Below are positions 1,695-50,559 of a stretch of DNA of 53,259 nt, in pieces; position 1 is the first letter of the stretch, and each line of letters begins with the position of its first letter. Under the pieces are notes generated by a model. The model saw nothing but the letters and a program-made list of their open reading frames with translations, made no database searches and had not been told where the DNA came from. The stretch is from assembly GCA_020438425.1 (NCBI GenBank), contig JAGQUQ010000008.1, positions 1-53,259 on the forward strand, read 5' to 3'. Source of the DNA: Solirubrobacterales bacterium. GTDB taxonomy: Bacteria; Actinomycetota; Thermoleophilia; Solirubrobacterales; 70-9. Position numbers and translations under genes: made by a program.

Positions 1695-2177
1695 ATGAGC
1701 GATTCCGAAACCCCGGTCGTCCTGACCGGAACCATGAACCGGCTGAACGGCAGCGAACAGGATCTCGGCGAGTACCTGGGCGACGTGACCCTGGTCGTAA
1801 ACACCGCCAGCAAGTGCGGGCTTACTCCGCAGTTCGAGGCCCTGCAGGCGGTCTATGCCGACAAGAAAGACGCCGGCTTCACCGTGCTCGGCTTCCCGGC
1901 CAATGACTTCATGGAGCAGGAGCCCGGCACTGCCGACGAGATCGCCGAGTTCTGCCAGATCAATTACGGGGTCGAGTTCCCGATGTTCGAGAAGACCACC
2001 GTGGTCGGGGACGAGGCCAATCCGCTCTTCGCCGAACTGGCCGCACAGTCCGAGCAGCCGGAATGGAACTTCGCCAAGTACCTGATCGACCGTGAAGGAC
2101 GGCTCGTGAAGAAGTTCCCCGCCCCGACCGCTCCGGATGACCCGGAGATCATCGAGGCAATCGAAGCCGAGCTCTAG
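1695..2177 (+). CDS. Glutathione peroxidase family thiol peroxidase
   Basis: A 160-residue protein of normal length for this family, which reduces H2O2 and organic hydroperoxides in the cytoplasm. The peroxidatic cysteine is in NTASKCGLTPQ. GFPANDFMEQEPG is the family's second signature, with Asp where many members have Gln. A further Cys (EFCQINYGVEFP) is in the position of a resolving cysteine, so it may work with thioredoxin rather than glutathione. WNFAKYLID supplies the conserved Trp/Asn. I chose the ATG at 1695 because the upstream in-frame extension to 1548 is atypical and overlaps the divergent gene's start. It is convergent with the HugZ-like gene: the two stop codons interlock in one CTAG at 2174-2177. 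Confidence 0.92.
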   Translation: MSDSETPVVLTGTMNRLNGSEQDLGEYLGDVTLVVNTASKCGLTPQFEALQAVYADKKDAGFTVLGFPANDFMEQEPGTADEIAEFCQINYGVEFPMFEKTTVVGDEANPLFAELAAQSEQPEWNFAKYLIDREGRLVKKFPAPTAPDDPEIIEAIEAEL

Positions 2178-3022
2178 GAGCCGAGCTTCTGGCGTGAGCG
2201 GCGGGCCAGGTCGACCGTGGCGGCGCGCAGGCCGCCCGGCTTGTCGATCCGGTCGGTGAAGCTGACCCGGGCGGCTTTCTCGCCTTCCGGTGTGACCAGC
2301 TGGAGATCCAGGCCGTAACGGTCGGCCCGGTCGCAGCTGGCCTCGGTCGCATCCGTGTACTTGGTGAAGGCCTTGGCCATCAGGAGCAGGGCGTCCGGAT
2401 GATCGGCGTTGAGGTGAGCGATCGCGTCGGGCACCTGCGGCTGGACCGGATCCGGTTCGGCGTCGCGGAAGTCCTCGGCCGAGGCCGAGTCCATGCGTCC
2501 GTAGCCGCCGACCCAGCGCACCCGGTCAACCTCGAGGATCCAGAAGGCGAAGTCGTTGAAGTCCGCGTACATCGCGGCTGAAGGCACGGCTTCGAGGTGG
2601 GCGGCCCGGGCCGACGCTTCGTCGGGGTGCTCGTCCGAGCGCTTGACCTTGCCGGCCAGGGTGACCCGGCCGCCGGCCAGGATCTCGCCGGTGTGGAAGG
2701 GATCGGAAACCATCAGCGAGGCCTGTCGGCTGTTCTCGAGGTTGCGGGCATGTTCGGCCAGGGTGGAGAGGCAGAAGACCGGGCTGCCGTCGTCCATGAC
2801 GCCGAAGGTGACCAGCGAAGCCCAGGGGGTGCCGTCGTCGCTCAGCGAGCCGAGAGTGCCGTGGGTCGCGTTGGCAAGAATGGTGCGTGACTCCTCGGCG
2901 GCACTGCGCCGCTTCCCGCCAAAGGCGATCGGCGCGACATCGGGGATCTCGGTGCCGGGTTCTGCGTCATGCACGCCGATCACGGCCTTGAGGTCTCGGT
3001 CATTCTTGGTCTCGGTCGACAC
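2174..3022 (-). CDS. HugZ-like haem utilisation protein (PNPOx-like split barrel + DUF2470)
   Basis: 282 residues. Residues about 35-175 form a pyridoxamine-phosphate-oxidase-like split barrel (HGTLGSLSDDGTPWASLV, then QASLMVSDP and RVTLAGKVKR) with the HugZ-type WVGGYGRM near residue 170. Residues about 195-280 are a DUF2470 domain (AIAHLNADHPDALLLMAKAF, with the HxxxDHxD arrangement). Members of this architecture bind or degrade haem, or act as related flavin/F420 proteins; haem cleavage to release iron is the best guess here because the gene is divergent from a haem/siderophore-type ABC importer and HtaA genes. The 3083-3096 palindrome lies upstream in the shared control region. Substrate is inferred, not shown. 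Confidence 0.8.
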   Translation of the reverse strand: MSTETKNDRDLKAVIGVHDAEPGTEIPDVAPIAFGGKRRSAAEESRTILANATHGTLGSLSDDGTPWASLVTFGVMDDGSPVFCLSTLAEHARNLENSRQASLMVSDPFHTGEILAGGRVTLAGKVKRSDEHPDEASARAAHLEAVPSAAMYADFNDFAFWILEVDRVRWVGGYGRMDSASAEDFRDAEPDPVQPQVPDAIAHLNADHPDALLLMAKAFTKYTDATEASCDRADRYGLDLQLVTPEGEKAARVSFTDRIDKPGGLRAATVDLARRSRQKLGS

Positions 3023-3082
3023 CGCTGTCTCGCTTTCGGTTCAGGTTGAGGGGGGAGGTCCGAAGGTACGGTCCAGAATAAG

Positions 3083-3096
3083 TTAGGGTACCCTAT
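3083..3096. promoter_or_regulatory. Candidate iron-responsive operator (IdeR/DtxR-like), site 1
   Basis: TTAGGGTACCCTAT fits TTAGG-N4-CCTAA with one mismatch, and its inner 12 bp (TAGGGTACCCTA) are a perfect palindrome. It lies between the divergent HugZ-like gene and the ABC importer, so one site could repress both. The same 14-bp pattern is contained in the known 19-bp IdeR box. Regulator identity is inferred; no regulator gene is in the window. Confidence 0.6.
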
Positions 3097-3196
3097 TCCT
3101 ACTTCAGCGCCGGGATTTATCGCAGGTCCACGACCTTTGTCTCCGCGCCGTGTTCCAAGGTTACTTGCCTACCCCTCAAGGAGTTCAGTTCCCAAA

Positions 3197-4105
3197 ATGA
3201 CGATCGCATCCGCACGCTCCATGTCCCGACCCGGCCGAATTTTCGGGGCGGTGATGGTGCTTGCCGCGATGCTCGTCAGCTTCGGCGGGTTGGCTCCGCA
3301 GGCCGATGCCGCAAAGCAGAAGCGGGTGGTAGCGCTCAGTCCCTTCGCCGCATCGGCGATGGTCAAGATGGGGGCCAGGCCGGTCGCGATCGGCGCCACG
3401 ATCGGTGGCGCGCGTCGGCTTGATCCGCGCCTCCGGAATGTGCGGAGCCTGCCCCTCTCGCATCCGAACGGCCCCAATCTCGAGGTGATGGCCAAGCTGA
3501 AGCCTGACCTGGTTTTCAGTTCCACTCGCTGGGCCAAGGGCACCAAGGCCCTCCAGAGCCTCGGCATCCGGGTGGTCTATGCCGACCCGACCGCCATCGG
3601 GCAGGTGAATCCGACGGTCACCAAGATCGGCAAGTGGCTGGGCAAGCAGAAGCAGGCCAACAACCTCAAGCGATCGATCCAGAACCGGATCCGCACGGCG
3701 ACCAAGGGCCTTCCGCCCTCCCGGCCAAAGGTTCTGGTCGTGCTCGGCATCGGCAACACCGCGATGGCTTTCCTCGGCAACAGCTGGGGCGGTCAGATCA
3801 TCCAGAAGGCCGGTGGCCGCCTGGTGACCGGTGGCGTCGGCAACCGGAGCGGCGGGTTCGTGAAGCTCTCCGACGAGGTGGTCGTTGCCCAGAACCCTGA
3901 CATCATCATCGTCGTGCCTCACGGCAACACCGATGACCTCAGTGAAGTCGCCGACTACATCAAGAACAACGAAGCCTGGAAGACGACCAATGCGATCCAG
4001 AACGACAAGGTCTACGTGTCGGTCGACAACGAACTGCTTCAGTCCGGGACCGATGTCGGCCAGATCATCGGCTCGGCCCGCAGCAAGTGGCTCAGAAACT
4101 GGTGA
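3197..4105 (+). CDS. Secreted substrate-binding protein of haem/siderophore/corrinoid ABC importer
   Basis: A class III periplasmic-type binding protein (TroA/BtuF/FepB fold): KRVVALSPFAASAMVKMGARPVAIG is the N-terminal lobe and LKPDLVFSSTRW the start of the hinge helix, followed by the second lobe (DIIIVVPHGNTDD). I prefer the ATG at 3197, preceded by AAGGAG about 13 nt upstream; in-frame starts at 3137 or 3224 are possible. The signal peptide ends QADAAKQKR and has no lipobox cysteine, which is unusual for a Gram-positive binding protein, normally a lipoprotein. It is the first gene of a three-gene importer. With HtaA proteins downstream and a HugZ-like protein divergent, haem is the favoured ligand; siderophore is the main alternative. 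Confidence 0.85.
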   Translation: MTIASARSMSRPGRIFGAVMVLAAMLVSFGGLAPQADAAKQKRVVALSPFAASAMVKMGARPVAIGATIGGARRLDPRLRNVRSLPLSHPNGPNLEVMAKLKPDLVFSSTRWAKGTKALQSLGIRVVYADPTAIGQVNPTVTKIGKWLGKQKQANNLKRSIQNRIRTATKGLPPSRPKVLVVLGIGNTAMAFLGNSWGGQIIQKAGGRLVTGGVGNRSGGFVKLSDEVVVAQNPDIIIVVPHGNTDDLSEVADYIKNNEAWKTTNAIQNDKVYVSVDNELLQSGTDVGQIIGSARSKWLRNW

Positions 4106-4173
4106 TCTCCGGGGCCTCCCCGGTCTGACCGCGGGACCGGGGGAGTGAGCTGACTCCTGTCAGGCCGATAGTC

Positions 4174-5139
4174 GTGGCCGTCTTCATGGCGGCGGCCCTG
4201 GTCCTGGCCTTCTGTGCCTCGCTCGCCTTCGGCGCGGTCCACATCCCGGTCAGCGACGTGATCGGGACGATTTTCGGTGACAAGGTCCCGGAAACCAGCC
4301 AGCAGATCATCGAGGTACTCCGCCTGCCCCGGACGATCGAGGCGATCCTGGTCGGTGCGGCGCTGGGAGTGGCCGGGGCCTGCCTTCAGGGGGCACTCAA
4401 CAACCCGCTCGCCTCGCCCGACGTGATCGGGGTGACCAGCGGGGCGGGCTTCGGAGCGATGCTGATCATCCTGCTCAACCCTGCCAGTGTCGAGCTTCTT
4501 CCCCTGAGCGCCCTGGCTTTCGGCCTGATTGCCGCCGGCATGGTCTTCCTGATCGGATTCACCGGCCGGGGCGGAGGCAACATCACCCGGGTGATCCTGG
4601 CCGGTATCGCGATCGCCGCCCTGTTCTCGGCCGCGACCGCGGCGCTGATGTCGGCCTACCCGGACCGGGTTCCGAACGCGGTCTTCTTTCTGGTCGGCGG
4701 GCTCACCTCGACCGGCTGGGAGAACCTCGAGACGGTCTGGCCCTACTTCGCCTTCGGGTTCGTGCTCGCGGTCTTCATGATCCGCCCGCTCGACAAGCTG
4801 ATGCTGGGCGATGACGTCGCCGCCTCGCTCGGCTCGAGGCCCAGGCTGATCCGGCTCCTCGCCGCTATCGCAGCCGCCGTGCTCGCCTCGGCCGCCGCCG
4901 CGATCGCCGGCCTGCTCGCCTTCCTCGGCCTGGTCATCCCGCACCTGGTCCGGCTGCTCGGCGGCACCAACAACCACACCTTCGTGATCCCGGTTTCGGC
5001 CCTGGCCGGCGCCGCCCTCCTGACCGCCGCCGACACCCTGGCCCGGACCATCGCCGCCCCGGTCGAGATGCCGGTCGGCCCTTTCCTGGTGCTGCTCGGC
5101 GTGCCGCTCTTCCTCTGGCTGCTGCGGAAGGCCGTCTGA
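4174..5139 (+). CDS. FecCD/BtuC-family ABC transporter permease
   Basis: 321 residues, about nine to ten hydrophobic segments, typical of the FecCD family that forms the membrane channel of iron-siderophore, haem and B12 importers. Family signatures are LRLPRTIEAILVGAALGVAG, GACLQGALNNPLASPDVIGV and, near the C terminus, GLLAFLGLVIPHLVRLLGG, the EAA-like loop that docks to the ATPase. The start is the GTG at 4174; an in-frame CTG at 4150, close behind a GGGGAG motif, would extend the basic N terminus and cannot be excluded. Its stop overlaps the ATPase start in TGATG, so the two are translationally coupled. Confidence 0.93.
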   Translation: MAVFMAAALVLAFCASLAFGAVHIPVSDVIGTIFGDKVPETSQQIIEVLRLPRTIEAILVGAALGVAGACLQGALNNPLASPDVIGVTSGAGFGAMLIILLNPASVELLPLSALAFGLIAAGMVFLIGFTGRGGGNITRVILAGIAIAALFSAATAALMSAYPDRVPNAVFFLVGGLTSTGWENLETVWPYFAFGFVLAVFMIRPLDKLMLGDDVAASLGSRPRLIRLLAAIAAAVLASAAAAIAGLLAFLGLVIPHLVRLLGGTNNHTFVIPVSALAGAALLTAADTLARTIAAPVEMPVGPFLVLLGVPLFLWLLRKAV

Positions 5140-5957
5140 TGGCGATCGGCAGAAAGACGATCCGGATCGACGAGCGGGCCCCGTTGCTGCAGGCCTCCGG
5201 GGTTCAGGTGACGATCGGCAAGAAGCGGATTCTCGAGTCGGCGGATCTGACGCTCGAGCGGGGAGAACTGGTCGCGATCGTCGGACCCAACGGGGCCGGC
5301 AAATCGACCTTCGCCCGGGGATTCTGCGGGCTGCGCCGGCCGGATGGAGGGTCGGTCAGGTGGATGGGCGTCGACCTCTCCGAACTGCGGGGACGCCGGC
5401 TCGCCGACATGCGGGCCTACGTGCCGCAGCGGGCCCAGGTTCCAGCCGGGGTGACCGTTCAGGCTGCTGTCAACATCGGCCGGTCCACCCATCTGAAGCC
5501 GCTGCAGGGACTTTCCTCCGAGGACCGGGATGTGATCGCGGAATCGATCGCCCGGGCCCGCATGGAAGGTTTCGAGGACCGCGACCTCGGAACTCTCTCG
5601 GGAGGCGAGATGCAGCGGGTCCAGATCGCCATCGCCCTGGCCCAGGGATCGCCGGTGCTGGTCGCCGATGAACCGACTGCCCAGCTCGACCTCGGAGCGA
5701 CCGCCGCGATCTCGAAGATGCTCCGTGAACTGGTCTCCGAGGGGATGGGGGTGGTGCTGATCGTTCACGACCTCGCTCTTGCCGCGGCGATCGCCGACCG
5801 GGTCGTGGTCATGTCTCACGGAAGGACGATCGCAACCGGAACCCCTGAAGCCGTGTTATCGAGTCAGTTGATCAGCGAAGTGTGGGGCGTCGAGGCGGAA
5901 CTCGTTCACAAGGATGGCCGCTCAGCACTCCACGTGGAATGGCTCGACCACCATTAG
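5139..5957 (+). CDS. ABC transporter ATPase (iron/haem importer, FepC/HmuV type)
   Basis: 272 residues with one complete nucleotide-binding domain: Walker A GPNGAGKST, Q-loop in YVPQRAQVP, signature LSGGEMQRVQIA, Walker B VLVADEPTAQLD and the switch histidine in LIVHDLALA. It energises the FecCD permease encoded directly upstream, and the C-terminal extension (VWGVEAELVHKDG) is typical of FepC/HmuV-like subunits. Its stop codon lies inside the palindromic operator candidate at 5954-5967, so the control region of the next gene begins within this one. Confidence 0.94.
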   Translation: MAIGRKTIRIDERAPLLQASGVQVTIGKKRILESADLTLERGELVAIVGPNGAGKSTFARGFCGLRRPDGGSVRWMGVDLSELRGRRLADMRAYVPQRAQVPAGVTVQAAVNIGRSTHLKPLQGLSSEDRDVIAESIARARMEGFEDRDLGTLSGGEMQRVQIAIALAQGSPVLVADEPTAQLDLGATAAISKMLRELVSEGMGVVLIVHDLALAAAIADRVVVMSHGRTIATGTPEAVLSSQLISEVWGVEAELVHKDGRSALHVEWLDHH

Positions 5958-5967
5958 GCGCTCCTAA
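5954..5967. promoter_or_regulatory. Candidate iron-responsive operator, site 2
   Basis: TTAGGCGCTCCTAA is a perfect TTAGG-N4-CCTAA palindrome. It overlaps the stop codon of the ABC ATPase and lies about 100 bp upstream of the first HtaA gene. It is 39 bp (about four helical turns) from site 3, start to start, so dimers at both could sit on the same DNA face. Confidence 0.65.
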
Positions 5968-5992
5968 TCCCAATCGTGTTAGTGTGGATTCA

Positions 5993-6006
5993 TAAGGCAG
6001 ACCTAA
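5993..6006. promoter_or_regulatory. Candidate iron-responsive operator, site 3
   Basis: TAAGGCAGACCTAA matches TTAGG-N4-CCTAA with one mismatch. It lies 60 bp upstream of the HtaA gene start at 6067, close to where a promoter or 5' leader would be expected. Confidence 0.55.
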
Positions 6007-6066
6007 TTCTCAGTACCTCTCGCAGTTTCCACCTCTCAGACCTAGTTCCAAGGAGATTTTCCACGC

Positions 6067-8055
6067 ATGAGTTCGCCCCTCGTCTCCCGTCGCGTCGTAC
6101 TGGCAGCCTTCGCTGCTTTCGCCGCTGCGGCCCTTCTGCTCGTCAGCCTCGCTTCCGGTTCTGCCAGCGCAGCTGACGTCACCTCCGGCAACACGACCTT
6201 CAACCTGACCTCCGGCAAGGCCGGCAAGGTCTCGGCCGTCAAGCCGGCCAACGTTTCCAAGCGTTTCGGCAAAAAGGGGGCGAAAGTCACTTCGGTCGCG
6301 AAGAACGGTTCCTTTGCCGGCACGGTCAGCCACAAGCTCGGTGGCGGGATTCGCTTCGCCAGCGGTAAGGGCAAGGTCACTGTCACCGGACTCACGGTCA
6401 AGACCTTCGCGAAGAAGTCCGTAGTCAGCGGCAAGCTGAAGGGCAAGACGATCAGCGTCTTCAATGCCTTCGGCAAGGCGACGATCAACATGTCCGGCAA
6501 GACCGCCAAGGTCACCGGCGCAAAGCTTTCACTCACCAACGTCGCCGCCGGCAAGATCCGCACGGCGCTGAAGCTGAAGAAGGCCCCCAAGGGCAAGATC
6601 GGCACCCTCTCGTATTTCCTCAAGGTGACCTCGGATGGACCGGTTGACCCCTGTGTCGCTGATCCGAACGCGGAAGGGTGTCAGCCCGAAGTGGTCGATC
6701 CCTACCTTGCCGAATGCGGACTGGAAGCTTCCAGCGAAATTGCGGGGACTCTCCCGGTCGCTGGTCCCGTTCCGACCTTCACAGGCACGGTCGAGAGCAC
6801 GCCGAATCCGATCACTTGGGGATTCAGGGCTTCGTTCCGAGGCTACTTCCTGGGTACGGGAGGCACCTATGCGGGAATCGACGGCGTGACAATCAACACG
6901 CTTCCCTTCCCGGGTCCGCCTCCGACCGGATTCACTTTCCCGGCCTCGAGTTCGACATACGCACCGGGTAGTTCTGCCTCAGCGACTGACGATCGAGTCG
7001 TAATCAACGGTTCGGGAACTTTGGTGCTTTGCCACAAGGCTCACGGCTTTCGTATCGCCCTTTCTGAACCGACGATCGTTGTCGACGGAACGGAGTCTCG
7101 TCTCATCGTTTCGGTTGACACAAACCGGACCGGAGAATGGACTCCGGCCCAGCGAGTTGTTCTCGCGAGTCTCGACACTTCCGCTACCAGCGTCGACTTC
7201 ACGAATGCCGGCGACACGGCGGTCTGGAATGACGTACCGGTGAGCCTTACCGAAGATGGTTCTAGTGCGCTTCGACTCTGTGATACGGCCGAAGGGGGTC
7301 CGACCGCATGCGAATATGAGGCGGGAGCAAACATGGATCCGATTTCTTTTTCGGTCCAGACCAGCTACCCGGAAGGTCTGTGTTCGATCGATTCAATCAC
7401 CGGGTTCACAACTCAACCGGGAAGTCTTGTTGGTCCGGCGGCCGAACCGATCCTCGATTCTCCCGAGGAAGTGACTGGAAGCCTCGATTGGGGTATTCGG
7501 CAGGGACTTAGGGGCTCGGCTATGACACCTCGTCAGTTCAACACGACGGCCAACACAACTCTGAGCAACCCCTCCGACATGACCGGTGTGGGCAAGTACT
7601 TCTCCTGGAACGCTGCGTCGGGTACATACGATGCCGGCGATCCGGGATCAGCGGACGATCGACTGGTTCTTAACGGTCTTGGTTCCATTGCGATCTGCAA
7701 CGTCAATCACGGTTACGGCGTCGTCTTTTCTGACCCGAGTGTGATTATCGATGGGGCTGATTCCCGTATCGTCGCTGACGTGGCCGCCCGAGTCGGTCCG
7801 GACTGGGTCTCGGGGAGGGTTGACTTGGTCGAGTTCGATTCGGCTGAAGCCGATGTCGCTGAGTCCAGCGAATCGATCGCATGGACACTCGATGACCCCA
7901 GTGTGAATCCTCCTCTGGGTGAGGTGACCTTGACGGGCGCTGGTGCGGCCATCCTTCAGGTGATGAATGGCCCTTCGCCCGCGCCTCCCACTTACTTCGA
8001 CGGAACCGTAATGCAGGGTTTCGTTGTCGAAGTAGCTCTTCCTGAAGGGGACTGA
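6067..8055 (+). CDS. Secreted multi-domain HtaA haem-binding protein
   Basis: 662 residues. A signal peptide with Ala-rich core ends near ASASAADV. Residues about 40-190 are a Lys-rich beta domain that itself resembles a degenerate HtaA domain (GGGIRFASGKGKVTVTGL, AKLSLTNVAAGKIRTAL). Two clearer HtaA domains follow: about 245-370 (ITWGFRASFRGYF, then CHKAHGFRIALSEPTIVVDG) and about 475-600 (LDWGIRQGLRGSA, then CNVNHGYGVVFSDPSVIIDG). HtaA domains bind haem, with a conserved Tyr and His; repeat 1 keeps both, repeat 2 keeps only the His. AAGGAG lies about 11 nt before the ATG. It has no C-terminal anchor, so it is probably a released or loosely held haemophore, the first gene of a three-gene unit. 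Confidence 0.85.
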   Translation: MSSPLVSRRVVLAAFAAFAAAALLLVSLASGSASAADVTSGNTTFNLTSGKAGKVSAVKPANVSKRFGKKGAKVTSVAKNGSFAGTVSHKLGGGIRFASGKGKVTVTGLTVKTFAKKSVVSGKLKGKTISVFNAFGKATINMSGKTAKVTGAKLSLTNVAAGKIRTALKLKKAPKGKIGTLSYFLKVTSDGPVDPCVADPNAEGCQPEVVDPYLAECGLEASSEIAGTLPVAGPVPTFTGTVESTPNPITWGFRASFRGYFLGTGGTYAGIDGVTINTLPFPGPPPTGFTFPASSSTYAPGSSASATDDRVVINGSGTLVLCHKAHGFRIALSEPTIVVDGTESRLIVSVDTNRTGEWTPAQRVVLASLDTSATSVDFTNAGDTAVWNDVPVSLTEDGSSALRLCDTAEGGPTACEYEAGANMDPISFSVQTSYPEGLCSIDSITGFTTQPGSLVGPAAEPILDSPEEVTGSLDWGIRQGLRGSAMTPRQFNTTANTTLSNPSDMTGVGKYFSWNAASGTYDAGDPGSADDRLVLNGLGSIAICNVNHGYGVVFSDPSVIIDGADSRIVADVAARVGPDWVSGRVDLVEFDSAEADVAESSESIAWTLDDPSVNPPLGEVTLTGAGAAILQVMNGPSPAPPTYFDGTVMQGFVVEVALPEGD

Positions 8056-8090
8056 TACTGAGGCTCAACGCCTCATATTCCGTCACTGAT

Positions 8091-9374
8091 GTGACAACGA
8101 CGAGGGCGGCCCTTTGCGGGTTCGCCCTCGTCGTGGTTCTGCTTGCCGTTTTCGTCGGGATCGGGGCCGCGCCTCCGACGGCTTCGGCCGCCAACCTTGA
8201 ACCCTGCGAGACCACCAACCCGACCGGGCCGATCGTCGAACTCGAAGGGGAGTTCACGCTCGCTCCGATGCATTCGACCCGCAAGGCCTGGAAGCGCAGC
8301 GGAATCCGCCAGAAACTGATCAAGCCGGCCAATCAGCTCACCGGCCGGCCCACCTTCCCTGTGGGCAAGGTCACCTACGGTTCCCCGGCCACGGTCGACT
8401 TCAAGGGCGGACTGAAGCTCCGCCACAGGAACCGCTCGGTATCCCTGACCCGTATCACCGTCCTCTCGGCCGCCGGCAAGCCCGCCTGGGTCAGGGCCTC
8501 CGCCGGTCAGGGCAAGGTCAACTTCTTTTCTGTCAAGGGTGGCCGGCGTACCTTCGACACCGAAACAGGGGAACTCTCCCGGGTCGGTTACGCCCGGCTC
8601 ACCGCCAGCGGCGCGAAAGTCCTCAACCGCCGGCTCGGTCTTTCCCGCAAGCAGAAGCTGAAAGCCGGAACAGTCTGGGGCTACCTCAATCTGTACGCGC
8701 TCTACAAGGTCACCGAGGTTGACGATCCGACCGGCGAGACCCCTGAAGAACCACCGGTCAAGCCCCAGCCTCCGTCGGCTCTGCCGGTCACTTCCGCGGC
8801 CACGGTCAAGTGGTATGTGCGCGACAGCTTCATCAACTACGTCGCCTCGGGGGCGGGAACCCGGGTCGAGAACGGAGCCACCGCCGACCCGGCGTCAGGG
8901 CCGCTCGATCTCGTTTACTCATTCAACTTCCCCTTCGCCTCCGGCTGGACCATCCCCGAGACCCCGGAAGATCCCGAGAACACCCTGATCAGGTCGAGTG
9001 GAACCGTTGGCTTCCGCTACTGCACCAACACCATCAACTTCACCGTTTCCGATCCCGAGATCGAGCTCGAAGGCGACACCGCTTCGCGCCTGATCTTCAA
9101 GGTCAACGGGACCGACGGCACGGCCTTCCCCGACCAGCGGGCGGTGATGGTGAAGCTGATGCCGGGCCTGGCCGAGTCCCACAACGTGATTGACAACGGC
9201 AACGGGACCAGGACGGTCAGTTACGTCAAGATTCCCGGCTTCGTCCCGCCCGAGGGCACCGGGATTTTCGCCGGCTTCTATCCCGGCTACAGCCCCGAGT
9301 TTGAAGGTCAGGACCCGCGCCCGGACCGCTTCGGTTTCTTCACCCTCACCTACACCTACTCGACCGGTTCCTGA
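8091..9374 (+). CDS. Secreted HtaA-domain protein, second of haem locus
   Basis: 427 residues from a GTG start. The signal peptide ends PPTASAANLEP. Residues about 40-210 repeat the basic beta domain of the upstream protein (FKGGLKLRHRNRSVSLTRITV, ASGAKVLNRRLGLS). After a Pro-rich linker (ETPEEPPVKPQPP) a C-terminal HtaA domain begins with VKWYVRDSFINYV, which keeps the aromatic/Tyr of the haem site, and continues FRYCTNTINFTVSDPEIELEG, which lacks the His seen in the upstream protein. The gene is 35 nt after the first HtaA gene and overlaps the next start (TGATG at 9374), consistent with one operon. A haem relay role is inferred from the family. Confidence 0.8.
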   Translation: MTTTRAALCGFALVVVLLAVFVGIGAAPPTASAANLEPCETTNPTGPIVELEGEFTLAPMHSTRKAWKRSGIRQKLIKPANQLTGRPTFPVGKVTYGSPATVDFKGGLKLRHRNRSVSLTRITVLSAAGKPAWVRASAGQGKVNFFSVKGGRRTFDTETGELSRVGYARLTASGAKVLNRRLGLSRKQKLKAGTVWGYLNLYALYKVTEVDDPTGETPEEPPVKPQPPSALPVTSAATVKWYVRDSFINYVASGAGTRVENGATADPASGPLDLVYSFNFPFASGWTIPETPEDPENTLIRSSGTVGFRYCTNTINFTVSDPEIELEGDTASRLIFKVNGTDGTAFPDQRAVMVKLMPGLAESHNVIDNGNGTRTVSYVKIPGFVPPEGTGIFAGFYPGYSPEFEGQDPRPDRFGFFTLTYTYSTGS

Positions 9375-10564
9375 TGGCTCCTGCGCTCGGCAAGAGAGGG
9401 CTTTGCCTGGCGTCGGCCGCGCTGTTCGCGGTTCTGCTCCTGGCTGGATCCCCCTCGGCAGTCAAGGCCGCCTTCTTTCCGTATCAGCCCGGACTGGTCG
9501 AAGTGAACGGTTACGCCTGGACGGCGAACCCGGTCAAGGTCGAACTGGAGGAGATTGCGCCGACCGACGGCGGGGCCACGACCTACACGGTCCGGGACAT
9601 CCTCGAAAACGCGGACTCCCGCTCCGGACAGTTCAACGTTGACACCGTTCCCGGGGTCGAGATCACCCTTCCTGGCGCGGCCTTCGGCGGACCTTCCTGC
9701 ACCGGTGACCAGATGAGGGCCGAGTCCGCTTCCTGTCCGCTCTTCAGCGCAACCGACACTTACACCGAGATGTCCTTCCGGAAGAACGGTCAGACCAAAC
9801 GGGTCCGCTACAAGGATTTCAACCCGGAGATCTACATCAGCAAACCGGCTGACCTCTCGGTCACCCTGACCCCGGCCGCGAAGACGATCGAGAGTGGCGA
9901 GACAGTCACCTTCAAGGCAAAGGTCACCGGCGCAAACGGCACCGCCACTTACAACTGGGACTTCGGGGACGGCGCATCAGACCAGACGACGAAGAACACC
10001 GTCTCCCACAGGTTCACCGGCAACGACGAACAGTTCTCGGTCATTCTGAACGTGACGGTCCCCGGCCAGGACGGCGGCGACGCGGCCGCTCTGATCACGG
10101 TCGGCAAGGTGAAGAAGGAAAAGCCGAAAGAGAAGGACAAGTCGAAGGACGAGAACGACTCGACCCCCGAGGATTCGGGCACCTACGACCCCGGTTATGT
10201 ACCCGGATACGACGACTACGACGACGGGACGGGCACCGGTGGCACGACCTCCGGCAGCACTCCGTCACCCTCGAACCGGCAGCAGCCCGAGAAGCAGCAG
10301 CCAGCCCCGGTTGAGCAATCGGGGGACACGGTCACCGGCCAGTTGATCGACCCGACCCAGATCGCCACGGTGGTGCCATCCACCGAAACACCGGCGACCG
10401 GAACCGAGGAGGCTGCTCCGGGGGACGATTCGAAGGGAATCTGGGGCAGCATCCCGAACGGCGCCAAGGCGGCCTTCGGGATCGGCGCGCTGCTCGGGCT
10501 CGGCGGCCTGGCCGAAGCCGGAGCCTTCAGCGGTGCTTTCCGCCGTTTCCGCTACCGCTTCTGA
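9374..10564 (+). CDS. Surface-anchored PKD-domain protein of haem locus
   Basis: 396 residues. It has a signal peptide (LCLASAALFAVLLLAGSPSAVKAA), a domain of unknown type at about 35-155 with two Cys (GGPSCTGDQ, SASCPLFS), then a PKD/Ig-like domain at about 160-240 with the hallmark TYNWDFGDG. A Lys/Glu- and then Gly/Ser/Pro/Gln-rich linker (about 245-350) leads to a hydrophobic segment (AAFGIGALLGLGGLAEAG) and a basic tail (RRFRYRF). The layout is that of a cell-surface protein on a long stalk held in the membrane. Being translationally coupled to the HtaA gene, it may be the haem receptor's anchor. Binding function is unknown. Confidence 0.75.
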   Translation: MAPALGKRGLCLASAALFAVLLLAGSPSAVKAAFFPYQPGLVEVNGYAWTANPVKVELEEIAPTDGGATTYTVRDILENADSRSGQFNVDTVPGVEITLPGAAFGGPSCTGDQMRAESASCPLFSATDTYTEMSFRKNGQTKRVRYKDFNPEIYISKPADLSVTLTPAAKTIESGETVTFKAKVTGANGTATYNWDFGDGASDQTTKNTVSHRFTGNDEQFSVILNVTVPGQDGGDAAALITVGKVKKEKPKEKDKSKDENDSTPEDSGTYDPGYVPGYDDYDDGTGTGGTTSGSTPSPSNRQQPEKQQPAPVEQSGDTVTGQLIDPTQIATVVPSTETPATGTEEAAPGDDSKGIWGSIPNGAKAAFGIGALLGLGGLAEAGAFSGAFRRFRYRF

Positions 10565-44325: not shown

Positions 44326-45051
44326 ATGACCAATCGAATCACCAAACCCGCTATCGGGCTGCTGCTCGGACTGGCGCTGCTGCTCGGCTTCGTCTCGCAG
44401 CCGGCCATGGCCGCGAAGAAAGTACCGGTCAACCTGCGGGTTGTCACCTACAAGGGACAGATCGTCTTCGACGGGACCGTGAACACCGGTACCGCGAAGA
44501 TCAAGCCGAACGCCGACTGCCTCGGCGGTGCCGCCGGCCCGGCCAGGACCGTCGTCGGTCCGACCGCGCTGGGTCTGCTCTACCAGGCATCACTTCAGTA
44601 CAAGGCGCTCCGCCCTCTCGAGCTCTCCGATGGAGACTTTGGGTTCGGCATCTGCGGTATCGCGGGCGTCTCTGCCAGGGACAAAGAGTGGTGGGTCCTC
44701 CGCCAGAACTACAAGGACACGATGACCGGCGCCGAAACCACGAAGGTGAAGCGCGGCGACAAGATCCTTCTCTACCTCTCGAAGAGCTATGAGGACACGA
44801 CTCCTGACAGCCTCGCCCTGAACGCCCCCGGCAAGGTGCGCAAGGGCGCGAAGGTCAAGGTCCGTGTCTTCAAGTACACCGGCGCCGGCAAGCGTTCGGT
44901 CGTCGAAGGAGCGAAGGTCTCCGGCGCCAAGGGCGCCCTCACCGACGCTCAGGGTTACACGACCCTGACCATCACCGGCAAGACGAGGCTGGTCGCCCGC
45001 CAGGGCAGCCTGATCCCGTCGAACCGGGTCCAGGTCTCGATCAAGAAGTAA
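44326..45051 (+). CDS. Secreted DUF4430 protein (transcobalamin beta-domain-like)
   Basis: 241 residues, ATG with AAGAAGG upstream. Signal peptide ends QPAMAAKKVP. Residues about 30-155 fit DUF4430 (TALGLLYQASLQYKA, then DGDFGFGICGIAGVSARDKE, WWVLRQNY and VKRGDKILLYLS), the fold of the C-terminal half of animal transcobalamin and intrinsic factor. The C-terminal 75 residues are an Ig-like domain (GKVRKGAKVKVRVFKYTGAG). It has no lipobox or membrane anchor, so it may be free or bound to a partner. Being the first gene after a B12 riboswitch, it most likely binds cobalamin outside the cell. Direct B12 binding is inferred. Confidence 0.8.
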   Translation: MTNRITKPAIGLLLGLALLLGFVSQPAMAAKKVPVNLRVVTYKGQIVFDGTVNTGTAKIKPNADCLGGAAGPARTVVGPTALGLLYQASLQYKALRPLELSDGDFGFGICGIAGVSARDKEWWVLRQNYKDTMTGAETTKVKRGDKILLYLSKSYEDTTPDSLALNAPGKVRKGAKVKVRVFKYTGAGKRSVVEGAKVSGAKGALTDAQGYTTLTITGKTRLVARQGSLIPSNRVQVSIKK

Positions 45052-45061
45052 TCGGGCTGGA

Positions 45062-46027
45062 ATGAATCTCTCAGCCGCATGCCGGTGGTTCCAGGGCCTT
45101 TCGGCCCGGGCCACCGGCATGGCGGCTGTGGTTCTCGCGAGCTCGATTCTGGCCGGATGCGGCCTCGGGCCGGGCGAGGAAACAGGTGACGCGAAACTCT
45201 GGGTTACCCGCGACTATGGCGCGGAAATCCTGGTTGACCGGGAACTGCCGGTCAACGAATCAAGCAACGCGATGCGGGTGCTCGACGAAAGCGCCGAGCT
45301 CGAAACCGCTTACGGCGGCGAGTTCGTTCAGGCGGTCGACGGGCTGTCCGGAGACACGGAAAGCGGTCGCAGCTTCGACTGGTTCTTCTCGGTCAACGGG
45401 ATCGTGGCCGAGCGGGGTTCGGCCCAGTTCCCAGTCGAAGGAGGAGACACCGTCTGGTGGGACTTCCGCGACTGGACCGACGCGATGGAGGTCGGCGGAG
45501 TGGTCGGCGCCTACCCGGCACCGTTCTCGACCGGGTATGACGACCGGAACTGGGGGGTCGAGATCGACTGCCGCGGTGAAAGCTCCGCCTGCCGCATGGT
45601 TGAGAACCAGCTGGCGGGAGATGGCGTGACCCTCAGGGACACGGGGGAGAACATGCGGATCGTGGTCGGCACCCTTCCCGAACTGCTCGACATTCCCGAG
45701 ATGAAGCGCCTGCACAAAGGCCCGGACGCGAGCGGAGTGTTCGCCACCTTCGGCCCGGGCGGAATCCTGCCTGGAGAAGGAAAGCCGAACCCGACCCTGG
45801 CAATCGAAGGACTCGGGATCGACGGCAGTGTGGCCCGGGAGTTCGGTCCCGAGGCCGGACTGGTGGCCGCTATGCGCCGGGCCGAAGATCCGCCGGTCTG
45901 GTTGATCACCGGGGGTACCGACGAGGCGGTCCAGATGGCCGCCGCAGCATTGAACCCCGCCGATCTTGAACGGAGATACGCAGCGGTGGTCAGCGACGGA
46001 ATGGTGAGCTCGCTGCCCTTACCCTGA
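45062..46027 (+). CDS. DUF4430 lipoprotein with extra C-terminal domain
   Basis: 321 residues. The lipobox SILAGC is at about residue 33. Residues about 45-150 are a DUF4430 domain (AMRVLDESAELETAYGGEFV, SFDWFFSVNGIVAERGSAQF, GDTVWWDFRDW). Residues about 170-320 form a separate alpha/beta-looking domain I do not recognise (DRNWGVEIDCRGESSACRMV, VWLITGGTDEAVQMAAAAL), with a possible disulphide. It starts 10 nt after the previous stop and 10 nt before ecfT, within one operon. The likely role is a membrane-tethered B12-binding or hand-over protein. Confidence 0.8.
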   Translation: MNLSAACRWFQGLSARATGMAAVVLASSILAGCGLGPGEETGDAKLWVTRDYGAEILVDRELPVNESSNAMRVLDESAELETAYGGEFVQAVDGLSGDTESGRSFDWFFSVNGIVAERGSAQFPVEGGDTVWWDFRDWTDAMEVGGVVGAYPAPFSTGYDDRNWGVEIDCRGESSACRMVENQLAGDGVTLRDTGENMRIVVGTLPELLDIPEMKRLHKGPDASGVFATFGPGGILPGEGKPNPTLAIEGLGIDGSVAREFGPEAGLVAAMRRAEDPPVWLITGGTDEAVQMAAAALNPADLERRYAAVVSDGMVSSLPLP

Positions 46028-46037
46028 GTGGTCGACG

Positions 46038-46916
46038 ATGAAGAAGCTTTCCCCGATCGCCTTTGTACCTCGCCGGGAGACCGTGCAGACGGCCTCGCTG
46101 GCTCCGGTCGCCCTGTATCTGGGTGCCTACCTGCTGGTCTGCTTCTTCTCCTCCGACCCGATGGTGCTGATCGCCGCCACGGCCGGCGCCGCGATCGCCG
46201 GTTACGGATGCGGAGCGAAACGGGCGGTCAACTTCTCGCTCAAGCTCGGTGGCTTTCTGGCCCTGACCATGATCATCGTCAACGCGCTGGTGACCAGCCG
46301 GGGAGCGACCGTGCTGGCCCGGCTCGGTGACTGGCCGTTGCTCGGCCGGGTTGACGTGACCGCCGAGGCGATCGCCGCTGGTGGCGTGATCGGCCTGCGG
46401 GCCATGGGCACGATGGTCGTGATCGGGGTCTGGTCGGCCTGCGTTGATCCCGACCGGATCCTCCAGGCGGTACACGGAGTGGCCAGGCGTTCGGCCCTGA
46501 CCGCCACCCTGATCTCCAGGCTGGTGCCGCTGGCCGCGACCGACTACGCCCGGATCGGCGAGGCGGCATCGCTGCGCGGCCCGGGGGCCAGTCCGGTCGG
46601 ACGCGGGGCGATGGCCCACAGATTGCTGGCCGGCTCGCTCGACCGCGCGGTGGACGTGGCCGCGACGCTCGAACTTCGCGGCTACGGATCGAGCGGCGCC
46701 TCGGCCCGGTTCAGGCCGGTGCCCTCGCGCTTCGATCGCCGCTTCTGGCTGGCCGGTGCGGGGTTGATGGCAGCCGCGCTGGCTGAACTGCTCGCGGGTT
46801 CGGGGCGGTTTGAGACCTATCCCGAAATTGCCTACGGGATCGGGCTCGAAGGCCCGCTGGTCGCCGTCGCGTTTCTGGTCGGCGGGTTCGTCACCTGGCG
46901 AAGGGGAGGGCGATGA
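46038..46916 (+). CDS. ecfT: ECF transporter T component
   Basis: 292 residues, CbiQ/EcfT family, with about five to six membrane helices. The two coupling-helix motifs characteristic of EcfT are visible: EAASLRGPG and TLELRGYGS (A/E-x-R-G type), which contact the ATPase grooves. It overlaps the ATPase gene by 4 nt (ATGA). Together with the double ATPase and the S-domain protein it forms a complete energy-coupling-factor importer; the substrate is taken as cobalamin from the riboswitch. Confidence 0.9.
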   Translation: MKKLSPIAFVPRRETVQTASLAPVALYLGAYLLVCFFSSDPMVLIAATAGAAIAGYGCGAKRAVNFSLKLGGFLALTMIIVNALVTSRGATVLARLGDWPLLGRVDVTAEAIAAGGVIGLRAMGTMVVIGVWSACVDPDRILQAVHGVARRSALTATLISRLVPLAATDYARIGEAASLRGPGASPVGRGAMAHRLLAGSLDRAVDVAATLELRGYGSSGASARFRPVPSRFDRRFWLAGAGLMAAALAELLAGSGRFETYPEIAYGIGLEGPLVAVAFLVGGFVTWRRGGR

Positions 46917-48550
46917 ATCCCGTCGCAGCCCCGCGCGCCTCCGGGCTCGCCCTGGAGATGGAGAACCTCGGTTACCGGTACGCGGGAGCGGAGGTTCCGG
47001 CCCTGGAAGGAATCGACCTGACGATCGAGCCCGGCGAGTTCATCGTGCTGGCTGGTGGCTCCGGGTCCGGCAAGACTTCGCTGCTCAGGGCCGGATGCGG
47101 CCTGATTCCACACTTCCACGGCGGGGAGATCTCCGGATCGGCGAGGGTTGCCGGAAGGTCGATTACCGACTGCGGCCCGGGGGAGCTGGCCGACGTGGTC
47201 GGTTATGTCGCGCAGGACCCGGAGACCCAGATCGTCTCGACCACGGTCGCGGCAGAACTCGACCTGCCGCTTCGCTTCCGAGGTGACCACCCGGCCGAGA
47301 GGGCCCGCGCGGTCGAGGAAGTAGCGCTCGCGCTCGGGATTCCCCACCTCCTTCCGCGAACCGTGACCACGCTTTCGGGCGGGGAACTCCAGCGGGTCGC
47401 CCTCGCGGTGGCCCTGGTCACCCGGCCTCCGCTGATCCTGCTCGACGAACCCACCTCCCAGCTCGACCCGGTCTCCGGGGACGAGCTGATCTGGCTGCTC
47501 CGCCGCCTCAATGAGGAGTGGGGGGTCGCCGTCCTGCTCGCCGAGCACCGGCTGGAACGGTGCCTGGCGGCGGCCGACCGGGTCGTTGCCATGGACGCCG
47601 GCCGGATCGGCTTTGACGGCTCGCCGCGCGACTTCCTCGGCTGGGCGATCGAGTCGAGACCGGAACTGGCGACGCCCTCCGCGCTGATGTTCGCGGGGGC
47701 AGGGATCGAGCCACTGCCGGTTGGCGTGCGTGACGCGAGAAGAATTCTCCGGGATCGAGATGTTCATTCCGGGGGTCCTTTGGAGTCTCAGGGACCACAA
47801 GTGTCACCCGGAAGTGAATCGACACCGGTTCTGGAATCGAGTCGGCTCTGGGTCGAGCTCGACCCCGGGGAAGGACCCGTTGACGTACTGCGGGGCATCG
47901 ATCTCGAGATTCGGGCCGGCGAGAAGGTCGCCCTGATGGGCCGCAACGGAGCCGGAAAGTCGACCCTGCTCCGCGCCGCGGCCGGGCTGGTCGACCCGGT
48001 TTCGGGCAGGATCGAGACTCCGGGCGGAATCGCTCTGCTCACCCAGAATCCGGGCGACTTTCTGGTTCGAGAAAGAGTCGGGGATGAACTCTCCGGGGCG
48101 GAAGGGGAGGCAGCGCTCAGAGCGGTCGGGCTGGACGTGTCAGCGGACCGCGACCCCCGCGACCTGTCGGGAGGCGAGCGCCAGCGACTCGCCCTGGCGA
48201 TCGCGCTCGCGGGCCGCATGGAAGGCGAGGAACTGCCCGGGCTGATCGGCCTGGACGAGCCGACCCGGGGCATGGACCGGGGGCTCAAGTCACACCTGAC
48301 CGAACTGGCCGACCGGCTCGCCCTCCGTAGCGCGGCGGTACTGATCTCGACCCATGACGTCGAGTTCGCGGTGACCTTCGCCGACCGGGTCATCCTGCTC
48401 GGAGACGGCGAAGTGATTGCCGATGCGGACACGGCGACCGTGCTTAGCGGCGGCTGGTACTTCGCTTCCGAAGCGGCCCGGGTCTTTGACCGGCCCGGCC
48501 TTGTTTCAATCGAACAGGGAATCGCCTTGCTGCGGGAGGTGGAAAGGTGA
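46913..48550 (+). CDS. ecfA: Fused double ECF ATPase (EcfA-EcfA')
   Basis: 545 residues with two complete ABC ATPase domains. First: Walker A GGSGSGKT (48-55), Q-loop VAQDPETQ, signature LSGGE (154-158), Walker B LILLDEP (174-180), switch His in LLAEHRLE. Second: Walker A GRNGAGKS (343-350), LTQNPGDFL, LSGGE (418-422), Walker B LIGLDEP (444-450), His 481. A linker of about 60 residues (DRDVHSGGPLESQG) joins them. Separate EcfA and EcfA' subunits are more common; here a single polypeptide supplies both. Stop overlaps the next gene's GTG. Confidence 0.93.
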   Translation: MNPVAAPRASGLALEMENLGYRYAGAEVPALEGIDLTIEPGEFIVLAGGSGSGKTSLLRAGCGLIPHFHGGEISGSARVAGRSITDCGPGELADVVGYVAQDPETQIVSTTVAAELDLPLRFRGDHPAERARAVEEVALALGIPHLLPRTVTTLSGGELQRVALAVALVTRPPLILLDEPTSQLDPVSGDELIWLLRRLNEEWGVAVLLAEHRLERCLAAADRVVAMDAGRIGFDGSPRDFLGWAIESRPELATPSALMFAGAGIEPLPVGVRDARRILRDRDVHSGGPLESQGPQVSPGSESTPVLESSRLWVELDPGEGPVDVLRGIDLEIRAGEKVALMGRNGAGKSTLLRAAAGLVDPVSGRIETPGGIALLTQNPGDFLVRERVGDELSGAEGEAALRAVGLDVSADRDPRDLSGGERQRLALAIALAGRMEGEELPGLIGLDEPTRGMDRGLKSHLTELADRLALRSAAVLISTHDVEFAVTFADRVILLGDGEVIADADTATVLSGGWYFASEAARVFDRPGLVSIEQGIALLREVER

Positions 48551-50559
48551 GCTGGCAGCTGATCAGCGTGATCGTGCTGCTGGTCGCGATCGGGGTCGGA
48601 ATGCTCTGGTACGAGCGATCGCGACCGCCTTCGCAGATCGTCGCCCTGGTTGCGGTCCTGGCCGCGCTCGCGGTCGCCGGGAGGCTGGTGCTGGCGCCGA
48701 TCCCCAACGTGGTCGCCACCACCGACATCGTGATCATCGCCGGGTTCGTGCTCGGGCCCGCGCCCGGCTTCGCGGTCGGGGCTCTGGGTGGCCTCGTTTC
48801 CAACTTCTGGCTGGGGCAGGGGGTGTGGACTCCCTGGCAGATGGTCGCCTGGGGAATGTGCGGGGTGGGCGGCGCGGCCCTGTGGCAGATGACCCGTGGC
48901 AGGGTCAATCGCTGGGTGCTGGCGGTCTTCTGCGGGCTGGCCGGTGTTCTCTTCGGTGCCTGGATGAATCTTGAGACGATGGTCAGTTTCGGGGGGGAAA
49001 TCTCGCTGGAGCGGTACCTTGCACTTGAGGTAAGAGCAATTCCATTCGATGTCGCACACATGACCGGCAACATCATCTTCGCCCTGGCCGCCGGCCCGGC
49101 CATGATTGCTGCCCTGACCCGGTTTCGGGAAAGGTTCCAGTGGCAGCAGGTCGAGACCGGTGATTCGGAGCGGGGCGACGCTGCCGGTGGCGGGCGACCC
49201 GGGGCTCGGCCCCGCACCGCGACCGGGCTGACGATGATCCTGGCCGGGATGCTGCTCTTCACCTTTGCCGGAGGCAGCGCCCCGCCGAAAGCCGACGCCG
49301 CCTACACCGCGGAGGCCAAGGAGGCGGCCGCCTGGCTTGAGACGCAACAGAACTCGGATGGCGGATTCTCCTCGATGCCGGGAGGCACCTCATCGGTGAA
49401 CATCACCGCCCGGGCGATGTTCGCGCTCGCCGCGGCCGGGATCAATCCGCTCGACGTGAAGACCAATGCGACGCCGTACGGGTACCTGGTCAACAACCGG
49501 GACGACATCACCGAAGCCAGCGACATCGCCCTGACCATCCTCGCGATGAAGACGGTCGGGCAGGACCCGAAGGACTTCAAGGGCCGCAACCTGATCAAGG
49601 CGCTGCGGGCGCGCCGGGGCAACGGCTCGTTCGGCAATGACGTCAACGTGACCGCCTTCGCCGCCCTCGCCTTTCGATCGGCGGCCGCGACAAAGGACGC
49701 GCAGTACTCGATCAAGTGGCTTTACAAGGCCCAGAACGACAACGGTGGCTGGGGCATCGCCAAAGACGCCGACAGCGGAGCCGACTCGACCGGTGCCGCG
49801 ATGATGGCGATCACCGGCGAGAAGTCGGCCAACCGGGCGATCGGCTTCCTCGACGGAATCCAGAAGAAATCAGGCGGGTTCGGAAGCAGCGGCAACGTCA
49901 ACGCCCAGTCGACCGGCCTCGTCATGCAGGGTCTGGTCGCGCAAGAGCGAGGCGTCAACTACCTGAAGAAGAACGGCAATTCCCCCGCCGACTACCTGCT
50001 TTCGCTGCAGCAGGAGGACGGCAGCATCCTCTACGCCAAGGGCAACGACGCGACGAGGGTCTGGGTGACGGCCGACGGAACCACTGCCCTGGCCGGAAAG
50101 CCCTTGCCGATCCAGGCTCCGCCTCGGGAGAAGGACGACAACTCGAGCAACAACGGCACGGGTGGTGCCTCGCCCGGTGACGGAACCGGAGGCACCTCGA
50201 CCGGGGGGACCACGCCGACCTACACGCCACCGGCCGGATCACTGGCCACCCCCTCGAACTCGACGCCTTCGACCTCCGGAACCGCAAACAGTGGCGGGAA
50301 CAACGGCGGCAACAACGGCGGAAACCAGGGTGGAGGAAACGCGAACAACGCACCGGAAGATACCGTCGAACCGACGACTGAACTGCCGCCGGATGATGCT
50401 TCCGTTTCGCTGGTGCCTGAAGCGCCGAGCGCCGAGGTGCTGGCCGCTTCCGAGGCCGGGCCCCAGCCGTCGCCGGTGATTGCGATCCTGATCGCCCTGG
50501 GAGTCAGCGGAGCGCTCTGCGGCGGCACGATCCTGCTCGCGCGGCGGTTCCGTTGGTAG
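48547..50559 (+). CDS. ECF S-like domain fused to extracellular alpha/alpha-barrel (intrinsic-factor-like)
   Basis: 670 residues. Residues 1-195 have about six membrane helices and look like an ECF substrate-specific component (GRLVLAPIPNVVATTDIVII, GPAPGFAVGALGGLVSNF). After a helix at about 228-243, residues about 255-522 form a prenyltransferase/squalene-cyclase-type repeat domain: AAWLETQQNSDGGFSS (261-276), LRARRGNGSFGND, IKWLYKAQNDNGGWGI, IGFLDGIQKKSGGFGSSG and ADYLLSLQQEDGS. This is the alpha6/alpha6 fold of the N-terminal half of intrinsic factor. A Gly/Asn/Ser/Thr linker (530-640) precedes a final membrane helix and RRFRW tail. The barrel would sit outside the cell above the S domain. 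Confidence 0.82.
   Translation: MSWQLISVIVLLVAIGVGMLWYERSRPPSQIVALVAVLAALAVAGRLVLAPIPNVVATTDIVIIAGFVLGPAPGFAVGALGGLVSNFWLGQGVWTPWQMVAWGMCGVGGAALWQMTRGRVNRWVLAVFCGLAGVLFGAWMNLETMVSFGGEISLERYLALEVRAIPFDVAHMTGNIIFALAAGPAMIAALTRFRERFQWQQVETGDSERGDAAGGGRPGARPRTATGLTMILAGMLLFTFAGGSAPPKADAAYTAEAKEAAAWLETQQNSDGGFSSMPGGTSSVNITARAMFALAAAGINPLDVKTNATPYGYLVNNRDDITEASDIALTILAMKTVGQDPKDFKGRNLIKALRARRGNGSFGNDVNVTAFAALAFRSAAATKDAQYSIKWLYKAQNDNGGWGIAKDADSGADSTGAAMMAITGEKSANRAIGFLDGIQKKSGGFGSSGNVNAQSTGLVMQGLVAQERGVNYLKKNGNSPADYLLSLQQEDGSILYAKGNDATRVWVTADGTTALAGKPLPIQAPPREKDDNSSNNGTGGASPGDGTGGTSTGGTTPTYTPPAGSLATPSNSTPSTSGTANSGGNNGGNNGGNQGGGNANNAPEDTVEPTTELPPDDASVSLVPEAPSAEVLAASEAGPQPSPVIAILIALGVSGALCGGTILLARRFRW

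Follow-up and report, generated by a model that had tools for sequence, protein, structure and literature searches.

Importers of the energy-coupling factor (ECF) type are described as having no need of an extracellular binding protein, their S component capturing the substrate itself. One of them, ECF-CbrT of Lactobacillus delbrueckii (6FNP; PMC5997447), transports cobalamin and cobinamide (PMC5997447); its S component, CbrT, is a lone subunit of 182 amino acids (aa) and its ECF module is common to other S components. The human carriers of vitamin B12, namely intrinsic factor, transcobalamin and haptocorrin (2PMV, 2BB5, 4KKI), are built from an alpha6/alpha6 barrel and a beta domain. The operon described here resembles both systems. 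It lies in a stretch of 53,259 nucleotides (the whole of which is called the window) from a Solirubrobacterales bacterium (assembly GCA_020438425.1, contig JAGQUQ010000008.1, positions 1 to 53,259 of the forward strand), and quite probably encodes an ECF-type importer of B12 (corrinoid), with a CbrT-like S component, its own EcfT and a fused EcfA-EcfA', equipped with a split, transcobalamin-like capture device. The system has in common with ECF-CbrT the S-component family, an EcfT with two ATPase domains and the presumed cobalamin ligand, but its S component is extended by an additional helix at the N-terminus and a barrel at the C-terminus, and is encoded beside an EcfT and EcfA-EcfA' of its own. 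With the human carriers it shares both folds and the presumed sandwiching of B12, whereas the two halves are on separate polypeptides (the S gene and a lipoprotein), there is no receptor and identity is about 11–21%.

Two groups of bacterial proteins also stand close to this locus. The SCO2321 family (NCBIfam NF053823), found in Streptomyces and other Actinomycetota, comprises a homologous barrel gene beside genes for EcfT, EcfA and S, whose product has a signal peptide and a C-terminal transmembrane (TM) helix. There the barrel is a separate gene, and the window protein scored 84.2 bits against a cut-off of 300, being related to the family but not a member. Lipoproteins of lactobacilli with a DUF4430 domain are annotated as 'additional lipoprotein component of putative cobalamin ECF transporter' (PMC9963975 table); these are likewise tied to a B12 ECF system, but by annotation only and without a described barrel partner (PMC9963975). 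A description of such a barrel partner, of a split transcobalamin arrangement, of bacterial transcobalamin-like proteins or of an S-barrel fusion was not found in the open-licence literature.

All genes of the operon are on the plus strand, and a cobalamin riboswitch (RF00174; 44094–44275) stands at its head, recognised by cmscan with 101.6 bits against a gathering threshold of 31.5; this was the sole match in the assembly. The riboswitch is followed by D1 (44326–45051), a secreted DUF4430 protein of 241 aa (Pfam DUF4430, 25.8 bits, cut-off 23.8) with a signal-like helix at its N-terminus, the gene for which is kept in syntenic loci, and by D2 (45062–46027), a lipoprotein of 321 aa (Pfam DUF4430, 41.1 bits), for which the AlphaFold2 model had a predicted local distance difference test score (pLDDT) of 90.7. 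Next are the transmembrane coupling subunit EcfT, of the CbiQ family (46038–46916; Pfam CbiQ, 36 bits, cut-off 25), and a fused double ATPase, EcfA-EcfA' (46913–48550), with two ABC_tran matches (164.8 bits) and ECF_ATPase_1 as its best NCBIfam model. The last gene encodes the S component-barrel fusion protein of 670 aa (48547–50559). The matches that identify an ECF transporter (CbiQ, two ABC_tran and ECF S) were therefore all present in one operon, and the order of riboswitch, D1, D2, EcfT, EcfA-EcfA' and S-barrel recurs across the order Solirubrobacterales. In 28 of 33 relatives' genomes the riboswitch was located 4.0–5.3 kb upstream of the S gene on the same strand, while in the other five it was on a different contig. 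Being controlled by a cobalamin riboswitch, the operon is presumably on when B12 is scarce. At one related locus (L031, 5251–7185) the riboswitch and D2 were followed by a fragment resembling T that runs on into part of a barrel, and A and S genes were absent from the vicinity; this looks like deletion or decay of the operon.

The ligand of the importer was approached through the S component and through the B12 metabolism of the genus. Residues 28–201 matched the CbrT chain 6fnp_A (E = 2.2e-15 for the single sequence, 8.4e-23 for the family profile), and no ECF S component other than CbrT appeared in the PDB matches of this part. The same part exceeded the cut-off of Pfam ECF-ribofla_trS (29.5 against 26.7 bits). 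Specificity for riboflavin or folate was rejected, because that name is a superfamily label and the folate model gave 19 of 60 bits; no riboflavin or folate S structure was matched by the S part in the PDB profile search. Proteins with a B12-binding domain occurred in all 21 genomes tested, and CobI/CbiL over the cut-off in no genome of the genus. Uptake of B12 by a BtuCDF-type system elsewhere in the assembly was considered and dismissed, since the sole FecCD permease of the assembly (4174–5139, also in the window) sits with an IsdE-like binding protein, HtaA proteins and a DUF2470/PNPOx protein, which indicates heme. Taken with the single riboswitch, these observations indicate that the ECF importer is probably what supplies the cells with B12. 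Because completeness of the assembly is about 83%, absence from it alone is a weak argument, and it is the relatives that carry the point. The heme uptake cluster as a whole spans 2174–10564 of the window and comprises the DUF2470/PNPOx protein, the IsdE-like Peripla_BP_2 protein, the FecCD permease, an ATPase and two HtaA proteins.

A likely ligand can thus be named, cobalamin, the binding of which is predicted. It is improbable that the importer takes cobinamide, other corrinoids or cobalt instead of complete B12. CbrT also accepts cobinamide (PMC5997447) and EcfT belongs to the CbiQ family, both of which would suit such a substrate, but the matched S component is not of the CbiM/CbiN type and it is cobalamin that the riboswitch senses. 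Moreover, lacking CobI/CbiL, the genus is probably unable to use cobalt for de novo synthesis of B12.

The fusion protein is encoded by an open reading frame of 670 codons with a GTG start at 48547. An extra N-terminal TM helix (residues 5–24; 48559–48618), seen in hydropathy and in the model and followed by the positively charged YERSR, precedes the canonical six helices of the S part; this is an addition to what had been described previously. The CbrT-like domain (residues 28–200; 48628–49146) is followed by a signal-peptide-like connecting helix (residues 225–240; 49219–49266; pLDDT about 52) and then by the barrel (residues 252–520; 49300–50106), identified as alpha6/alpha6 and like the alpha domain of intrinsic factor by the model and by structural and profile matches. 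AlphaFold2 gave a confident barrel of 12 helices at residues 254–516 (pLDDT about 90–98). Within it are five repeats of the form Q/R-x-x-D/N-G-G/S-F/W/I (267–274, 356–363, 396–403, 439–446 and 488–495), the second and fifth being degenerate, and both Pfam Prenyltrans and SQHop_cyclase_N were over their cut-offs in this protein. A low-complexity stalk (residues 521–642; 50107–50472), fast evolving and with pLDDT <50 over most of its length (disordered at 538–625), leads to a C-terminal TM helix (residues 643–667; 50473–50547; hydropathy 2.28, helical in the model) that ends in a cytoplasmic RRFRW. An earlier note on this DNA had proposed just this combination of S component, connecting helix, repeat barrel, disordered stalk and final TM helix in one gene, and the 6fnp_A match, the AlphaFold2 model, the repeats and the comparison of loci now bear it out.

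Among homologous loci in named genomes, 67 of 74 were open through the whole match and five more had a stop only past the barrel. One of the 67 open loci changes frame (L121), so that S and barrel are fused in at least 71 of 74 Solirubrobacterales loci, which rules out an assembly or frameshift artefact or a chance run-on. The locus that changes frame is from Svornostia abyssi (L121, 7001–8552); its S and barrel parts do not share a frame as they do in other members of the order, and this could be either a frameshift or an unfused pair. Both halves were under purifying selection (dN/dS, the ratio of non-synonymous to synonymous change, roughly 0.1–0.4), while the linker and stalk evolve fast. 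The final TM helix was missing from 22 of 51 non-redundant relatives (about 40%), the chain ending after the barrel.

Positive charges follow the first helix (YERSR) and the last S helix (RFRER) and are found again at the C-terminus (RRFRW), as in a positive-inside pattern. Together with the signal peptides found in unfused homologues, this pattern puts the barrel on the extracellular side and rules out a cytoplasmic one. The earlier note had likewise put a ligand-binding type of barrel outside the cell, and had named a cytoplasmic barrel, or first 195 residues that are no S component, as findings that would overturn it; neither was encountered. In three families of the order (f1–f3), S and barrel share one frame, whereas the other families of the class mostly have them as two neighbouring genes, and the gene fusion is therefore lineage-specific. 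In one unfused neighbouring lineage (L157) the GTG start of the barrel gene overlaps the stop codon of the S gene, and a typical signal peptide is found there; in others (L161, L154, L147) the barrel combines a signal peptide with a TM helix at the C-terminus, a layout shared by the SCO2321-type gene of Streptomyces. Unfused barrels in general carried a signal peptide and, in most cases, either a C-terminal TM anchor or S-layer homology (SLH) domains. Operons with unfused barrels often have a cobalamin riboswitch (L151, L153, L157, L158, L144, L155). Since unfused homologues carry a signal peptide at this place, the connecting helix is most plausibly what remains of the signal peptide of a barrel gene that was formerly separate.

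The barrel resembled the B12 carriers in both structure and sequence. The model was superimposed on intrinsic factor (2pmv_A) with Z = 20.6 and a root mean square deviation (rmsd) of 2.9 over 231 aligned residues, and alignment by hhalign with the alpha domains of B12 carriers gave p = 2.2e-4 over 208 columns, against p = 0.26 and 0.21 in controls with swapped domains. N452 was invariant and S455, T456 and Q461 near-invariant, with the spacing of the GN-x-x-ST-x4-Q motif of transcobalamin and haptocorrin; intrinsic factor has D instead of N. We take the asparagine of this motif to be Asn224 of human transcobalamin, which presumably contacts cobalamin, and the numbering fits. Near-invariant residues were also found at the N-termini of other inner barrel helices (D413, T415, W506, T508).

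Several observations weigh against this interpretation. Squalene-hopene cyclase gave Z = 25.8, and this and other toroids fitted the barrel as well as or better than intrinsic factor did, so that the fold alone is not specific; the top matches in both sequence and structure were terpene cyclases rather than B12 carriers; Pfam Cobalamin_bind (PF01122) gave 10.4 bits for the window barrel, below its cut-off of 25; and some loci, those of Streptomyces among them, have ECF genes and a barrel but neither a riboswitch match nor a recognisable DUF4430 gene. On an alternative view, the barrel would be an enzyme outside the cell, either like a class II terpene cyclase or another alpha/alpha toroid, and the transporter would move another ligand or product. 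Squalene-hopene and drimenyl diphosphate cyclases belong to the alpha/alpha toroid superfamily and have the repeat motifs in common with the barrel; drimenyl diphosphate synthase and squalene-hopene cyclase were its best profile matches (E = 1e-35 to 1e-30; Z about 25), and a motif like D-x-D-[DS]-T (D413 in 56 of 57 sequences) is alignable in one register with the DxDD of drimenyl synthase. However, this register is ambiguous because of the barrel repeats, and the catalytic motif appears not to be intact in the window barrel, which has G-A-D-S-T where relatives often have D-x-D-D-T. The squalene-hopene cyclase model TIGR01507 gave 21.2 bits against a curated cut-off of 431. Moreover, the window barrel is single, secreted and in a B12 operon, cyclase substrates are not expected outside the cell, and the cobalamin riboswitch, the CbrT-like S component and the DUF4430 partners speak against a cyclase, which we regard as very improbable.

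The other half of the carriers has its match in the lipoprotein. D2 has a lipobox cysteine, C33 (45158–45160), that was invariant in 54 sequences, followed by a beta domain (residues 36–139; 45167–45478). The 14 highest-ranking structural matches to this domain all belonged to the three B12 carriers: haptocorrin 4kki gave Z = 13.4 with an rmsd of 1.7 over 95 residues, transcobalamin 2bb5 gave Z = 12.0 and intrinsic factor 2pmv gave Z = 11.6. Below them came 3u7z (Z = 11.1), a DUF4430-like structure from a bacterium, and most of the later matches concerned the C-terminal domain. When the profile of residues 36–139 was compared with those of the carriers' beta domains, p was 2.4e-5, to be set against the same swapped controls as above; DUF4430 is itself present in the C-terminal part of transcobalamins (PMC4350170). 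The C-terminal domain of D2 (residues 146–314; 45497–46003) is a second domain of alpha/beta type and resembles a domain of the cellulose synthase subunit BcsB and the N-terminal domains of GH84 enzymes (Z = 8–10.4).

With a barrel matching the alpha domain and a lipoprotein matching the beta domain, both halves of a transcobalamin-like B12 binder adjoin a B12 ECF importer. They are on separate polypeptides (the barrel within 48547–50559, the beta domains within 44326–46027), while a member of the transcobalamin family is a single chain; for this reason, and given the PF01122 score, the system falls outside the family definition, although it probably works like a member. A split device is plausible, because the human alpha and beta domains, when expressed separately, assemble only with cobalamin present (PMC5599065). 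The comparison suggests that bacteria catch B12 between the same two domains as animals do. A second cobalamin-riboswitch locus with barrel frames was observed in a genome of the same genus (G012; L030, 2475–6316), where one open frame combines a D1-like, DUF4430-related region with a barrel region; it is possibly a single-chain bacterial alpha/beta B12 binder.

In the proposed mechanism, scarcity of B12 would switch the operon on through the riboswitch. The barrel and the beta domain of the lipoprotein would jointly capture the corrinoid at the cell surface, with the second DUF4430 protein being secreted; the S component would then take the corrinoid over from the capture device, and ATP hydrolysis by the ECF module would drive it inward. 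The earlier note, which stood as regards fusion architecture and sidedness, had missed the riboswitch and the DUF4430 lipoprotein with its beta domain, and had the barrel fixed directly over the substrate pocket. The last point found no support in the model. The cytoplasmic loop at 199–224 and the linker at 238–249 are disordered, so that the AlphaFold2 model leaves the relative position undefined; the chain may be cleaved by signal peptidase; and many relatives, as noted above, are without the final TM helix.

The possible cleavage site is A-D-A (residues 249–251; 49291–49299), just after the connecting helix. The motif A-[DEQHRKN]-A was present at this place in 38 of 51 non-redundant fused relatives, where shuffling predicted 12.8 and none of 1000 shuffles reached 38; the motif was defined after inspection of the sequences. 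The version with a polar middle residue was adopted because the alanine content makes the count of any A-x-A a weak indicator (45 seen, 36.7 expected, a weak excess). The statistics suggest cleavage by signal peptidase I, and the odds are about even between a chain that stays whole as a tether and one that is cut at the A-x-A into two working proteins.

There is an even chance that the fusion is only a precursor, from which signal peptidase I would free the S component, leaving a barrel that its C-terminal TM helix or the lipoprotein keeps in place; function would then be as in the unfused actinobacterial systems, and the fusion would merely couple synthesis one to one. Persistence of a short hydrophobic segment and A-[polar]-A in those 38 relatives, despite a fast-evolving linker, agrees with such a cut, as does the barrel gene of L157, which begins with a signal peptide at precisely this point. 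Bacterial cytochrome bc1 precursors (FbcH) are cut in such a manner. It is less easily reconciled with the 22 relatives that lack the C-terminal TM helix, since 20 of these still have an A-x-A and a cut would release the barrel unless it were held by a partner; alanine-rich sequence alone, moreover, often yields the site.

That the chain remains uncut and keeps the barrel tethered above the S component, making an ECF transporter with a built-in substrate-binding domain, has a little less than an even chance. Maintenance of one reading frame in nearly all loci, the mere 12 or so residues separating helix 225–240 from the barrel, and the need for an N-terminal tether in relatives without the final TM helix are in its favour. 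Against it are the retained signal-peptidase-like site and the disordered loop and linker, which leave orientation unfixed. In addition, S components such as CbrT tilt within the membrane and dissociate from the ECF module in the course of transport (PMC5997447, PMC12075633), which makes a rigid lid unlikely. The fullest form of the proposal, namely an ECF transporter whose S component has a covalently attached extracellular substrate-binding domain that forms, with the lipoprotein, an alpha/beta clamp closed by cobalamin and homologous to intrinsic factor and transcobalamin, is put forward tentatively and is on balance rather doubtful.

If true, the system would be an ECF importer that has its binding protein built in, and would supply a prokaryotic counterpart, perhaps a source, of the animal carriers intrinsic factor and transcobalamin. 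In this operon a B12 ECF importer is paired, and in one lineage fused, with domains matching both halves of the carriers of the animal gut and blood. Confirmation would also give functions to DUF4430 proteins and to SCO2321-type 'prenyltransferase-like' membrane proteins across Actinomycetota, and the fusion allows the idea of an internal signal peptide in a polytopic membrane protein to be put to the test.

Two further observations concern related loci. Unfused barrels at L148 (6341–8149) and L156 (6278–8074) had SLH domains, and their anchor is probably the cell wall rather than the membrane. Finally, four records of metagenome-assembled genomes labelled Bifidobacterium breve or Chlamydiae (L073, L086, L118, L111) contained an operon of the Solirubrobacterales type, and their labels are probably wrong.

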